From Caldimonas caldifontis (GTDB lineage Bacteria; Pseudomonadota; Gammaproteobacteria; Burkholderiales; Burkholderiaceae_C), in NCBI RefSeq assembly GCF_002930615.1, contig NZ_PSNX01000014.1:1-64000 (forward strand): a DNA stretch of 64,000 nucleotides. Reading direction: 5' to 3'. The position numbers were made by a program, and so were the translations under genes. The notes beneath the pieces were generated by a model. The model made no database searches and was not told the origin of the DNA. It was given only the letters and a program-made list of their open reading frames with translations. Below are positions 17,704-39,171 of the stretch, piece by piece (position 1 is the first letter of the stretch; every line of letters begins with the position of its first letter).

Positions 17704-17806
17704 CCCCGCGTGGCGTGGGAATTTCAGGCAAGAATAAGGGCCCGGAGACTTTCCGGGCCCTGGTGATTGGTGGAGCCGGGGGGAATCGAACCCCCGTCCG
17801 CAAGCC
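17704..17806. repeat. Right ssrA repeat (tmRNA 3' end and terminator)
   Basis: The intact partner of 2128-2230. It covers the tmRNA terminator, the CCA end and the T-arm of ssrA. The aligned pair lies 15,576 bp apart in the same orientation, which is the arrangement expected of an element integrated at the ssrA 3' end. Confidence 0.75.
17738..17760 (-). terminator. ssrA terminator
   Basis: GGGCCCGG-AGACTTT-CCGGGCCC is a hairpin 8 bp beyond the tmRNA 3' end, and on the minus strand it is followed by TTATTCTT. It is the natural end of the tmRNA transcript. Confidence 0.85.
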
Positions 17807-18127
17807 ATCAACGGACAGTTCTACATGCTTAGCTGGCTGATTTGAGTCTCACGGCAGGGATCGCGCAGCAGCACGCTACCCCCATCGCCAGTCACTGGAT
17901 CTCATCCTGCGGTGAGTGACCCACCACCGGACCAGCCGATATGAATGACCTCTCAGCCCTTGCGGGCCCGGCCTATCGGCCAACCGTTGAGAGGCTCACC
18001 GGTGTTAAGCGGCGAGGGCGAAACGTTCGTCGTTCGCAGTTACTTTGTTCCAGTGGATTTACGAGCGAACTGGTGCTCGGCATGCCCTGTTCCGAATCCG
18101 CACCCACGTCGAAACCAGGTCGGCCCC
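17768..18127 (-). ncRNA. ssrA: Transfer-messenger RNA
   Basis: A 360-nt tmRNA, which rescues stalled ribosomes. 5' GGGGCCG (18127 down) pairs with CGGCTCC before the encoded ACCA end at 17768. The T-arm GGGGGTTCGATTCCCCCC is present, and GGTTTCGACGTGGG near the 5' end is the D-loop-like signature. The tag frame at 18037-18005 (GCG AAC GAC GAA ... TAA) encodes ANDERFALAA, the Burkholderiales form. The mature ends are assigned by pairing, not by experiment. Its partner SmpB is outside the window. Confidence 0.95.
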
Positions 18128-18171
18128 GGGAATCGGGAGTCGGATTGTATGTCGGGGCAAAGCAGACCGCT

Positions 18172-18852
18172 TCAAGCCCCCTTCAACCCCAACAGCGGCA
18201 GCAGATCCAGAGGTCGGGGAACGACATGGTCTGCCGCCCACGATGAGACGTCCGCATGTTCGCCCAGATAGCCATAGGCCGCAGCCACACAGGGCATGCC
18301 GGCCGCGCGTGCAGCCTGGATGTCGCGCAGGTCGTCGCCGACGTAAACGGCCTGCGTGGCCGCGGTCAGCAACCGCCGACAGGCTTCGAGCAGCGGTTCC
18401 GGGTGCGGCTTGGCATGCGGCGTGGTGTCGCCCGCGATCACCACCGCCGCGCGCTGCGACAGCCCCAAGGCTTCGAGCACCGGGCCTGTGAACCGCATGG
18501 CCTTGTTGGTGACCACACCCCAGCGCACCCCCGCGTGCTCCAGGCCGTCGAGCAGTTCAGGCACCCCTTCGAAAAGACGGGACTTCACGTCCAGGGCGGC
18601 AGCGTACTCGGCCAGAAATTCCTCGCGCAGGGCGTCGAACTCGGCATCGGCGGGCCCCTTGCCCAACGCCACACCGATCATCCCGCGGGCCCCGGCCGAC
18701 GCCACCGGCCGCAGGCGATCCACGGACAGTGCCGGCAGCCCGCGTCGCTCGCGCATGCGGTTGGCAGCCCCGGCGAGGTCCGGTGCGGTGTCGGCCAGGG
18801 TCCCATCCAGGTCAAACAGCACCACCTGGGGAAGGCTCAGAAAGGCGCTCAT
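18172..18852 (-). CDS. gph: Phosphoglycolate phosphatase (HAD family)
   Basis: A 226-residue HAD phosphatase that clears 2-phosphoglycolate from DNA repair. [20 protein letters not shown] has the nucleophile (DxDGT, motif I), GVVTNKAM is motif [16 protein letters not shown] has the motif III lysine, and [17 protein letters not shown] is motif IV. ATG 18852 overlaps the ubiG stop (ATGA), the usual ubiG-gph pair in Burkholderiales. Its order (ubiG first, then gph on the minus strand) implies shared transcription. Confidence 0.93.
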
Positions 18853-34192: not shown

Positions 34193-37100
34193 TTACTCGT
34201 AGACGATGCTGGCCTGGCCTTCGTGGGCATCGCGCCGCCATACGTTCAGCGCCTCGTCGCTGGGGTAAAAACGCGCCGCCTCGCCCAGATCCACCTCGCC
34301 GTAGGCTTGGGCGCGCTGAACCGCCAGGCGCACGGTGAGGCCCTGGACGAGTTCGCCCTGCTCGGTCTGCACTCGGCGGGGCGGATGGGCCTGCAGCAAC
34401 TCGCGCACCGCAATGGCCTGGCCGTTGACGGCCACGCGCAGGTAACGACCGAAACGGCAGCGCGCCGCGGCCAGGTCCCAGACCTGCTGCACGTTCAGGC
34501 GCAGGCCGCCTGAAAAGCGATCGGGCTGGACCTTGCCCTGCACGATGAGGAGTTCATCGTCCCTGAGCCAGTCGCGGTGAGCGTCGAGCAGGTCTTCGTT
34601 GGCCACGGCCTCGATGACTTCGGTCTTGTCGTCGAGCTTGAAGATCGCCACGCGGCCGCGCTGGCCGTTGACCACGCGCAGATCGCTGACGATGCCCGCG
34701 AGCAGTTGCGGCTCGCGGCTGTCGACCAGGTCGGCGATGCGCAGCCGCGCGAAGCGGCGCACTTCGGGGGCGTATTCGTCGAAGAGGTGGCCCGAGAGGT
34801 AGAAGCCGATGGCCGGCTTCTCGTGCATCAGGCGGGCCTTGATGCTCCAGGGTTCGGCGGCGACCAGCTCGGGCTCCTGGGTGGACGAGCCGTGGGCGTC
34901 GCCGAAGTCGAACAGGCCGCCCTGGTCGGCATGCGCGGCCTGGGTGTCGGCGTATTCGAAGCCCAGCGAGACGCTGGCCAGCAGGGCAGCGCGGTTGGGC
35001 TCCAGCCCATCGAAGGCACCGGCTTTGATGAGCGCCTCGACCACCCGCTTGTTGATGCGCGAGCGGTCCACACGGGCGCAGAAGTCGAAGAAGCTCTTGA
35101 ATCGTCCGCCGGCCTCGCGCGCCTGCACGATGGCCTCGATGGCGCCCTGGCCCGTGCCCTTGATGGCGCCCAGACCGTAGCGCACCGTACGCTCGCCAGT
35201 GGGCTCGAAACGGTAGGTGCCGGTGTTGACATCCGGCATCTCGAAGCGGATGCCGAAGTTCTGCACCGCGTCATCGAAGAAGATCTTGAGCTTGTCGGTG
35301 TCGTCGATCGACACGCTCATGTTGGCTGCAAAGAACTCGGCCGGGTAATGCACCTTGAGCCAGGCGGTGTGGTAGGCCAGCAGGGCATAGGCGGCGGCAT
35401 GCGACTTGTTGAAGCCATAGCCCGCGAACTTCTCCATCAGGTCGAAGATCTCGTTGGCCTTGCCGGCATCGATGCCATTCTTCGCCGCGCCCTCGGCAAA
35501 GATGACGCGGTGCTTGGCCATCTCCTCGGGCTTCTTTTTGCCCATGGCACGGCGCAGCAGGTCGGCACCACCGAGCGAGTAGCCGCCGACGATCTGGGCC
35601 ACCTGCATCACCTGCTCCTGGTAGACCATGATGCCGTAGGTCTCTTTGAGCACGCCCTCCATCAACGGATGGGGATACTCCACCGGCTCGCGCCCATGCT
35701 TGCGGGCGCAGAAGGATGGGATCAGGTCCATGGGCCCGGGGCGGTACAGCGCCACCAGCGCGATGATGTCCTCGAAGACGCTGGGCTTGGCGTCGCGCAG
35801 CATGCCCTGCATGCCGCGGGATTCCAGCTGGAACACGGCCACCGTCTTGCCTTCGGAGAGCAGCTCGTAGGAAGCCTTGTCGTCCAGCGGGATCCTGGCG
35901 AAGTCGAAGTCCTTCTGGTCAGGGTACCGCGCGACGATGAACTCCTTGGCCATCTCCAGGATGGTCAAGGTGGCCAGGCCGAGGAAGTCGAACTTCACCA
36001 GGCCGATGGCCTCGACGTCATCCTTGTCGTACTGGGAGACGGCCGAGTCGCTGCCGGGCTGCATGTACAGCGGGCAGAAGTCGGTGATCTTGCCCGGCGC
36101 AATCAGCACGCCACCGGCATGCATGCCGATGTTGCGCACCATGCCTTCGACGCGCTCGGCCAGGGCCAGCAGCTCGGCCACCTCCTCCTCGTTCTTCTCG
36201 CGCTCCTCGATCTCGGGGGCTTCCTTGCGTGCGTAGATGACCCCGCCATCGGGGTTGTCGCCGGGGCGCTTGAGCGTGACCGTCTTGCCCGGCGGCGCGG
36301 GCACGAGCTTGGCGATGCCGTCCACATGGCCATAGCCCATGCCCAGCACGCGACCCACGTCGCGCAGCGCGGCCTTGGCCGCCATGGTGCCGAAGGTGGC
36401 GATCTGAGACACGGCCTCGCGGCCGTAGCGTTCCTTCACGTAGTCGATGACACGGTCGCGGTTGGCCTGGCAGAAGTCGATGTCGAAGTCGGGCATTGAC
36501 ACCCGCTCGGGGTTGAGGAAACGCTCGAACAGCAGGTTGTAGCGCAGCGGGTCGAGATCGGTGATCTTGAGGGCGTAGGCCACGAGCGACCCCGCCCCCG
36601 AACCACGCCCCGGGCCCACCGGACAGCCATTGTTCTTGGCCCAGTTGATGAAGTCGGCCACGATAAGGAAGTAGCCCGGGAAACCCATCTTCAGGATGGT
36701 GTTGATCTCGAAGTCGAGCCGTTCCACGTAGGTGGGCCGCTGCCGATCGCGCTCGGCCCCATCGGGATAGAGATGTCGCAGACGCTCCTCCAGGCCTTCG
36801 AGCGAGACCTGGCGGAAGTACTGCTCCATCGTCAGTCCGCCCGGGATCGGGAAGTTGGGCAGCTGAGGCTTGCCCAGCACCAGGCTGAGGTTGCAGCGCT
36901 TTGCGATCTCGACCGAATTGGCCAGAGCCGAGGGAATGTCAGCAAACAGGGCCTCCATCTCGGCCTGGGTCTTGAAGTACTGCTCGCGGGTGAACCGCTT
37001 GATGCGCCGCGGGTTGGTGAGGGTCTCGCCCTCGGCGATGCACACGCGGGCTTCATGGGCCTCGAAGTCCTCCGGCGTCTGGAACTGCACCGGGTGGGTG

Positions 37101-37693
37101 GCCACCACCGGCAGCCCAAGTTCGGCCGCGAGCGGCACGGCGGCGCGCACGTGGGCCTCGTGCGTGGCGAGGCCGGCGCGCTGCAGTTCAAGGTAGAAGC
37201 GCTGTGGGAAGAGCGCCGCCAGCCGCTGCGCCGCCGCCTTGGCGCGCGGCAAGTCGCCCGCCAGCAGCGCCTGGCCGACCAGGCCCTGGTCGGCGCCCGA
37301 CAACGCGATCAGGCCGTCGCCCAGGGTCTCGAGCCACTCCCACTTCAGCCAGGCCTGGGCGCGTTGCACGTTCTGCGTCCAGCCCCGGGCCAGCAACTCG
37401 CACAGGTTCAGGTAACCCCGCGTGTCCTGGATCAGCAGCAACAGACGGCTGGGCTGGCGCTCTGCGCCACTGGCCGTGGCGGGCTCCATCCACACGTCGG
37501 CGCCAATGATCGGCTTCACCCCCGCACCGCGGGCTGCGCTGTAGAACTTGATCGCGCCAAAGAGGTTGGACAGGTCGGTGATGGCCAGGGCCGGCTGGGT
37601 GTCGGCGGCAGCGGCATCGACCAGGTCGTCGATGCGCAGGGTGCCGTCGACGACGGAAAACTCGGTGTGGGTGCGCAGGTGGATGAAGGCCAT
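34193..37693 (-). CDS. dnaE: DNA polymerase III alpha subunit
   Basis: A replicative polymerase of 1166 residues. The N-terminal PHP domain ([21 protein letters not shown]) and the polymerase core with [19 protein letters not shown] (catalytic Asp residues), [14 protein letters not shown] and [18 protein letters not shown]; the C-terminal helix-hairpin-helix and OB parts follow. ATG 37693 is preferred over 37702 because a TACAAT box (37706-37701, minus strand) overlaps the latter. It is divergent from trhO across a palindromic 27-bp spacer. Confidence 0.97.
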
Positions 37694-37700
37694 GCGGATC

Positions 37701-37727
37701 ATTGTAGGCAGCCGCCCTGCCTACAAT
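37701..37727. promoter_or_regulatory. Palindrome with two facing -10-like boxes (dnaE/trhO)
   Basis: ATTGTAGGCAG (37701-37711) and CTGCCTACAAT (37717-37727) are perfect 11-bp arms around CCGCC. Each strand reads TACAAT 7-9 nt before the start codon of the gene it serves (dnaE minus, trhO plus). Confidence 0.6.
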
Positions 37728-37736
37728 CACGGTCCC

Positions 37737-38474
37737 GTGAGCCCGTATCTGAACATCTCGGCGTATCTTTTCGTCTCGATCAGCGACTGCGAGCGCCTGC
37801 GCGAGAGCATCCGCTCACGTGCCGACGCGCTGGGCTTGCGCGGCACCGTGTTGCTGGCCGAGGAAGGTCTCAACCTCTTTCTCGCCGGAGAGGCACACGC
37901 CGTGCGCGGCTTCGTCGGCTGGCTGCGCACCGACCCCCGCTTCGCCGCGCTGGAGCCCAAGGAAAGCTGGTCGGACGCCGTGCCCTTCCAGCGGCTGAAG
38001 GTGAAGGTCAAGCGCGAGATCATCCGCATGAACCACCCGGCCATCCGGCCGCAGCAAGGCCGCGCGCCGGCGGTGGATGCCGTCACCCTCGCGCGCTGGC
38101 TGGACGAGGGTCAGGATGACGAGGGCCGCCCGGTGGTGATGCTGGACACGCGCAATGCCTTCGAGGTGGACCATGGCAGTTTCGACGGAGCCATCGACTG
38201 GCGGCTGGAGAAGTTCAGCGACTTTCCCGCCGCGGTCCAGACTCATCGGGACGAGCTTGCCGGCAAGACGGTGGTGAGCTTCTGCACCGGCGGCATCCGC
38301 TGCGAGAAGGCGGCGATCTACCTGCGCGAGGCCGGGCTCGATCACGTCTACCAGCTCGACGGCGGCATCCTGAAGTACTTCGAGCTCACCGGCGCTCGTC
38401 ACTATCGCGGCGGCTGCTTCGTCTTCGACGAGCGCGAGGTCCTGACGCCCGATCTGGCGCCGCTCAGGACCTGA
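37737..38474 (+). CDS. trhO: TrhO: rhodanese-type tRNA uridine hydroxylase
   Basis: A 245-residue protein of the YceA/TrhO family, which hydroxylates U34 in tRNA using oxygen. [17 protein letters not shown] is the family beginning, [13 protein letters not shown] follows, and the C-terminal rhodanese domain has [19 protein letters not shown] with the Cys of the active loop. Start is GTG 37737, 9 nt after TACAAT and without a ribosome binding site. The gene's end overlaps the DUF599 gene by 11 nt (convergent). Confidence 0.9.
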
Positions 38475-39171
38475 GCACCTCCAGGACTTCCGAGCGGAAC
38501 TCTCGCGTGTAGAGCACCCAGATCACACCCGCGGTCAGCACCGCGAACGCCAGCGGCGAGAAGAACCACCCGATCAGCGCGAAGGCCATGTAGTAGGCAC
38601 GCAGGCCATCGTTGAAGGTCTCGGCCGCCAGACCGACGACGCGTCCGGCCCGCTCGGCAAAGTCATCGCGTGAGGCCTCACCCCGTTCGAACACGCGAAA
38701 GTCCGGTGCCGAGGCGATCATCAGCGCCCCGAAGGTGTATTGCCGCAGCGACCAGGTGAAGCGGAAGAAGGCGAACACGAAGACGCCGGTGAGCACCAGC
38801 ACCTTGAGGTCGAAGACCAGCACCGAGGTGCGCGCGGCAAAGGGGATCTCGGCCACCAGCTCGGTGGCCTTCTCGCTGGTGCCGAGCACCGCCAGCAGAC
38901 CCCCGATGATCAGGATGGTCGTGGACGCAAAGAAGGAAGGGCTGCTGGACAGGCTCTGGATCACGATGCCATCGATCACGCGTACGTCGCGGTGTGTGGT
39001 CTGCAGCATCCACTGCCGGCGCAGCTGGTTGGTCACGCCGAGCACCGTCATCTCGGTCTGGCCGCGGTGGCGAGCAAACAGGGCGTAGGCCACCCAGGCC
39101 GCGAAGAACCAGCTGAGGGCCAGCCAGTCGGTCCAGGGCAGCAGGGTGATGATCTTGAGTGCGGCGTCCAT
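38464..39171 (-). CDS. DUF599 membrane protein
   Basis: A 235-residue inner-membrane protein with about four transmembrane helices ([76 protein letters not shown]). The [14 protein letters not shown] stretch and the central [13 protein letters not shown] are seen in the DUF599 family. Function unknown. ATG 39171; the longer open frame to 39426 lies in the pirin gene. Confidence 0.8.

Follow-up and report, generated by a model that had tools for sequence, protein, structure and literature searches.

Back-to-back -10-like motifs form a palindrome between the divergent genes dnaE and trhO of Caldimonas caldifontis, where dnaE is predicted to be leaderless

Within the window analysed here, a stretch of 64,000 nt from Caldimonas caldifontis (contig NZ_PSNX01000014.1, positions 1 to 64,000), two genes are transcribed away from each other across a very short spacer. 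The gene dnaE, encoding the DNA polymerase III alpha subunit, occupies positions 34193-37693 on the minus strand, and trhO, encoding a rhodanese-type tRNA uridine-34 hydroxylase, runs on the plus strand from a GTG start codon at 37737 to 38474. Both products score above the respective NCBIfam cutoffs (DnaE: 1461.7 bits, cutoff 1002; TrhO: 215.7 bits, cutoff 170), and the best-scoring model for the trhO product is 'sulfurtransferase' PRK05320 (407.4, cutoff 331). The spacer holds an inverted repeat with two 11-nt arms (37701-37711 and 37717-37727) that are 100% complementary and flank a centre of 5 nt, so that the 27-bp palindrome at 37701-37727 reads ATTGTAGGCAG-CCGCC-CTGCCTACAAT. An outward-facing TACAAT is present on each strand, and the two hexamers are 15 nt apart: the predicted -10 box of dnaE (37701-37706, minus strand) ends 7 nt before the ATG (A at 37693), the predicted -10 box of trhO (37722-37727, plus strand) 9 nt before the GTG. 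The initial annotation had described the palindrome, its arm length and both box distances in the same way, and the coordinates confirm it. Each hexamer is preceded by CTGCC (37707-37711, minus strand; 37717-37721, plus strand), i.e. by a motif CTnCC; in relatives, the bases before the dnaE box occur in similar proportions with and without a neighbouring trhO, and for trhO the motif was read from the column counts of the box pairs. An additional in-frame ATG of dnaE (37700-37702, minus strand, A at 37702) overlaps the -10 hexamer and lies upstream of the predicted transcript start; such an ATG over the box is also seen in some relatives (e.g. L087 and L088) and is absent from most. An optimum distance of 7 bp between -10 box and transcription start is quoted in PMC12825309, and counting 7 nt from each box we infer transcription starts at 37694 (+/- 2 nt, minus strand) for dnaE, 1 nt before the ATG, and at 37734 (+/- 2 nt, plus strand) for trhO, 3 nt before the GTG. 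Neither gene has a Shine-Dalgarno sequence between the -10 box and the start codon. A sigma-70 promoter scan of positions 37500-37900 returned 0 promoters.

The two boxes match what has been mapped in other Burkholderiales. Promoter mapping in B. cenocepacia J2315 (PMC4603805) and C. metallidurans CH34 (PMC7563307) gave TAnAAT as the -10 consensus, in both species with a weak or variable -35 element and with documented leaderless mRNAs; in the window, TACAAT conforms to this consensus on both strands. A -35 element (weak TTGCC or TTGACA-like) is not recognisable at the dnaE/trhO spacer, and the -35 region of 57 dnaE promoters of the family without trhO has no base preference. As the published -35 element is itself weak, its absence weakens the assignment to housekeeping promoters only little. 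The boxes also resemble the signal that Zheng et al. (2011, PMC3160421) describe for leaderless genes, a TANNNT some 12 bp ahead of the start codon, with a -10-like box at the leaderless distance and no Shine-Dalgarno sequence in between: the first T lies 13 nt before the start codon of dnaE and 15 nt before that of trhO. The gap of 9 nt after the trhO box exceeds the usual 6-7 nt, which counts against the explanation we favour below.

The outward arrangement exceeds what chance would give. The window contains the pattern ATTGTA-N5-30-TACAAT once, compared with none of 100 dinucleotide shuffles; in the 3.64-Mb genome it is found at 2 places, and the reversed control pattern has no match. Single TACAAT hexamers, on the other hand, are not enriched (4 in the window versus 2.5 expected). 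The arm CTGCCTACAAT itself has 7 exact copies in the genome (reversed control: 0). All of them precede open start codons in promoter orientation, and 2 of them make up the palindrome. The other five lie 6-51 nt before an open frame, depending on the start chosen: the gap is 10 nt for an ABC transporter ATPase, 6 nt for a TldD-like protein, 7 nt for a methionine synthase, 29 nt for a frame that starts with MKLATYKDG, and 12 to 51 nt for a frame in which several codons could be the start. In 464 kb of the genome, 42 of 47 TAnAAT hexamers are not wholly within predicted genes, which cover 82% of this sample; the underlying gene prediction (399 genes) was crude and missed the start of trhO. CC precedes the hexamer in 14 of the 23 cases near and upstream of a gene start, compared with 6 of the 19 other non-coding ones. 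Likewise, the bases before the hexamer in the dnaE promoters of the family favour C-T-Y-C-C, and similarly so with (65) and without (57) trhO within 150 nt. Since copies of the arm are found at promoters, and the bases at dnaE are alike with or without trhO, the arm appears to be a -10 promoter motif. Most likely, then, the palindrome would consist of two copies of the -10 motif usual in this genome, approximately CTnCCTAnAAT, facing outward and placed back to back.

A genome-wide search for outward pairs, in which one half was ATTGTA, ATTTTA or ATTCTA (TAnAAT with C, A or G) and the other half any TAnAAT, added one place, and all three outward pairs found in the genome sit between divergent genes. 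Besides dnaE/trhO, these are a small TIGR02449-like protein (31.7 bits, below the cutoff of 55.4) facing away from cobU (178.5 bits, cutoff 161), and rsmD (145.9 bits, cutoff 117.5) facing away from ftsY (26.5 bits, below the cutoff, with only the first 128 codons available). The latter pair, ATTTTAGGCGGGCTCCTAGAAT (L244:19559-19616; G000:C1, the window's own genome), has the GTG of rsmD 7 nt past its box and the ATG of ftsY 23 nt past its box; with a box at this distance, rsmD is also predicted to be leaderless. In the 464-kb sample (L236, L242), a leaderless mRNA is also predicted for a RibB-type gene (box 9 nt before the ATG), for mutL (8 nt) and for a QueG-like gene (6 nt).

To follow the boxes through relatives, we took the start of each gene as the in-frame start codon closest to the conserved N-terminus, a choice made here that does not depend on annotation. 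Relatives came from a TrhO search (the best 80 of at least 569 relatives), a genus search (9 genomes) and a family search (399 genomes, 381 matches), from which 26 new loci and 60 hand-picked ones, about one per genus and favouring window-like DnaE, were used. Among the resulting 177 loci, with L001 and L002 excluded, 138 had a dnaE start, and these represent 131 distinct upstream regions. The TAnAAT box ends 6 nt before the dnaE start in 78 regions, 7 nt in 41, 8 nt in 1 and 9 nt in 2. Thus 119 of 131 regions have a gap of 6-7 nt, which places the first T 12 or 13 nt before the start; the background for this count is 4 hexamers in 26,200 sites. The gap of 6 or 7 nt is found in 41/43 loci drawn by TrhO and in 78/88 drawn by dnaE. 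Nine of the 131 regions have no TAnAAT within 40 nt, and some of these keep a degenerate box in the same place. For trhO divergent from a nearby dnaE, TAnAAT lies 6-9 nt before the start in 63 of 72 cases; among the 9 dnaE-adjacent trhO genes without it, one (L079) lacks it only because the start anchor missed the box. Where trhO is located elsewhere, not beside dnaE, the box is found at 6-10 nt in 22/47 cases. This conservation of distance supports the reading of both TACAAT hexamers as -10 elements, and it backs the dnaE start given above. The near-leaderless transcripts proposed in the initial annotation are likewise supported, as a prediction, for both genes.

Beyond the family, we sampled 58 places from 50 families of the order, chosen from 146 matching genomes, of which 57 were usable. 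TAnAAT at 6-7 nt before dnaE is present in at least one genome of 22 of the 50 families (the window's own included), and 2 further families have TANNNT at this distance (background: 11 in 17,100 sites). In the class beyond the order, we took the 20 top-scoring genomes among 51 further matching ones, and 2 of these have a dnaE box at that distance. From the conserved box-to-start distance we predict a leaderless dnaE for the whole family and a part of the order, and seldom outside it. In five loci from other families of the order (L190, L204, L211, L212 and L223) ATTATA, i.e. TATAAT reversed, occurs no more than about 10 nt from the start codon of dnaE, as if the -10 box of a divergent neighbour sat inside the dnaE leader.

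The pairing of dnaE with trhO is less constant than the dnaE box. At 95 dnaE-drawn loci, trhO is within 150 nt in 37 cases and farther away in 9, and 49 have no trhO in the stretch examined. A dnaE box together with a trhO gene no more than 150 nt away was present at 65 distinct loci; the trhO box could be resolved in 55 of them, and in these pairs the spacing from hexamer to hexamer ranges from 7 to 63 nt, with 13-17 nt in 23 of the 55. The exact geometry is therefore not a fixed property of the dnaE/trhO pair. Within the genus, the two genes diverge from boxes 14-17 nt apart in 8 of 9 genomes. In the exception (G007, L086; G007:C2, ~1610979-1611183) the dnaE ATG lies about 167 nt downstream of two outward boxes that are 25 nt apart, and a degenerate TAGATT is found 6 nt before this ATG. 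The junction sequence in two of the nine genus genomes is the same as in Caldimonas mangrovi (L004) and Aquabacterium sp. A7-Y (L003). As a separate observation, a similar outward pair, 23 bp long and near-perfect (ATTGTAAGAGCGCGTTCTACAAT or a close variant), is present at another locus in three congeners (L257, L261 and L267 in G002, G007 and G004, respectively).

Our preferred reading, to which we assign a probability of roughly 85%, is that the spacer contains a pair of separate housekeeping-type (sigma-70-like) promoters pointing away from each other, each of which would give a leaderless or nearly leaderless mRNA. Each promoter would consist of a -10 element with a pyrimidine-rich extension (approximately CTnCCTAnAAT) and no recognisable -35 element. 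With the boxes 7 and 9 nt from the start codons, transcription would begin at the start codon or at most about 3 nt from it, and the resulting dnaE and trhO mRNAs would be leaderless or nearly so, lacking a Shine-Dalgarno sequence. The promoters would overlap because both boxes are kept near the starts and the start codons are just 43 bp apart; the palindrome would be the appearance that two such motifs take on when they abut. RNA polymerase covers roughly positions -55 to +20 of a promoter. With predicted starts about 40 bp apart, two polymerases should not both occupy the site, and it is plausible, as the initial annotation proposed, that use of one promoter precludes simultaneous use of the other.

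A perfect palindrome also calls to mind an operator, at which a dimeric transcription factor would control dnaE and trhO jointly, either hindering or assisting polymerase at the two promoters. The two perfect 11-nt arms around a 5-nt centre, and the similar spacing of 13-17 nt seen in part of the pairs, are in line with this proposal. We asked whether the symmetry is kept in relatives, using 54 pairs with boxes at least 10 nt apart (the pair with a 7-nt gap was excluded). The five bases adjoining the boxes agree between the dnaE and trhO arms at 2.72 of 5 positions, compared with 2.38 for shuffled partners, a value reached in 28 of 5000 shuffles. When the comparison is made with the five closest relatives whose trhO arm differs, however, the agreement is 2.72 versus 2.57 and the difference not clear (893 of 5000 sign flips). 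A clearer excess is confined to the three bases next to the box (1.94 within a genome versus 1.56 in relatives; 0/5000 sign flips), and this likeness of the two arms partly speaks against fully independent promoters. Yet it is clearer at long spacing (31 pairs; 0/5000) than at short spacing (23 pairs; 287/5000); as it is not stronger where the boxes are close, it would fit a genome-wide promoter preference better than an operator. In 28 of 54 pairs, dnaE and trhO have the same hexamer variant. Perfect inner arms, 5 of 5 bases, occur in just 2 of 54 (the window and the congener L087), near the 1.2 predicted from independent columns. Thus, conservation of the palindrome, which had been named as a check, gives a divided answer: the perfect symmetry is not kept in relatives and the two boxes are. 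Moreover, half-sites at a fixed spacing, as expected among orthologous operators, are not observed, given the range of 7-63 nt, and the arm stands singly at five other promoters, its bases being present also at dnaE promoters without trhO. The protein-binding site offered as an alternative in the initial annotation is thus not supported, its arm bases being those of the ordinary pre-box motif, and we regard an operator as very unlikely.

The same geometry could be taken as a regulatory switch, in which polymerase on one promoter silences the other and the overlap was selected to couple dnaE and trhO inversely. The short distance between the predicted starts and the spacing kept in most genomes of the genus would suit such a switch, but in most dnaE-drawn loci trhO is not within 150 nt, the spacing of the boxes extends to 63 nt, and the overlap follows more simply from both genes having their box near the start codon. 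In addition, five bidirectional promoters of E. coli showed no competition at basal activity, being too weak at this level to compete, although activating one direction could repress the other (PMC12825309). A selected switch is accordingly, in our judgement, highly improbable. Still more remote is an RNA hairpin or terminator, or a palindrome that arose by chance and has no function. An inverted repeat with a short loop is there, but it lies upstream of both predicted transcription starts, no terminator-like site was detected in positions 37500-37900, an Rfam search of 37000-38500 gave no match up to E = 1, and both boxes are conserved.

The bidirectional promoters described by Warman et al. 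(2026, PMC12825309) resemble the dnaE/trhO spacer in their symmetric DNA, their divergent transcription and the inability of two polymerases to bind together. They differ in that the two directions share one -10 element and the starts are mostly 18, 10 or 23 bp apart, and the authors exclude separate divergent promoters from the term 'bidirectional'. We considered a shared -10 element for the window and rejected it, the geometry being that of two hexamers 15 nt apart with predicted starts about 40 bp apart. Overlapping back-to-back divergent promoters were not found in the open-access literature searched, nor did a search of this literature by title and the beginning of the abstract retrieve a leaderless dnaE in this group. 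In C. metallidurans, leaderless mRNAs make up 4.67% of primary starts, with transcription and with replication, recombination and repair over-represented among them (PMC7563307); the word dnaE is absent from the main texts of this study and of the one on B. cenocepacia (PMC4603805). The survey of Zheng et al. places leaderless genes in only 9 of 71 beta-proteobacterial genomes, and the word dnaE is absent from its main text (PMC3160421).

Returning to the two abutting promoters, we regard the palindrome as a real feature with ordinary parts, and the noteworthy generalisation is the predicted leaderless dnaE in the family and in part of the order. An essential replication gene would thus be leaderless throughout a whole family, and dnaE offers a testable model for why some essential genes remain leaderless where most mapped leaders are longer. 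The case also shows that a striking palindrome can come from two ordinary promoter motifs, which calls for caution with divergent spacers in GC-rich genomes. More speculatively, a leaderless dnaE could be a selected trait, in this family and in some other Burkholderiales, that ties polymerase output to conditions favouring leaderless translation, i.e. the state of the ribosome or the balance of initiation factors; where trhO abuts, a double promoter serving one polymerase at a time would then link replication capacity to tRNA wobble modification. We hold this to be unlikely.

Two minor observations may be added. Two further loci of congeners (L264 in G008 and L265 in G004) contain 29-bp palindrome-like strings with an extra inner TTGTA repeat, e.g. 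ATTGTAGATACAACTGTTGTAGATACAAT, which look more like operators than like promoter pairs. Within the window, a tmRNA gene is located at 17768-18190 on the minus strand, with the tag ANDERFALAA.
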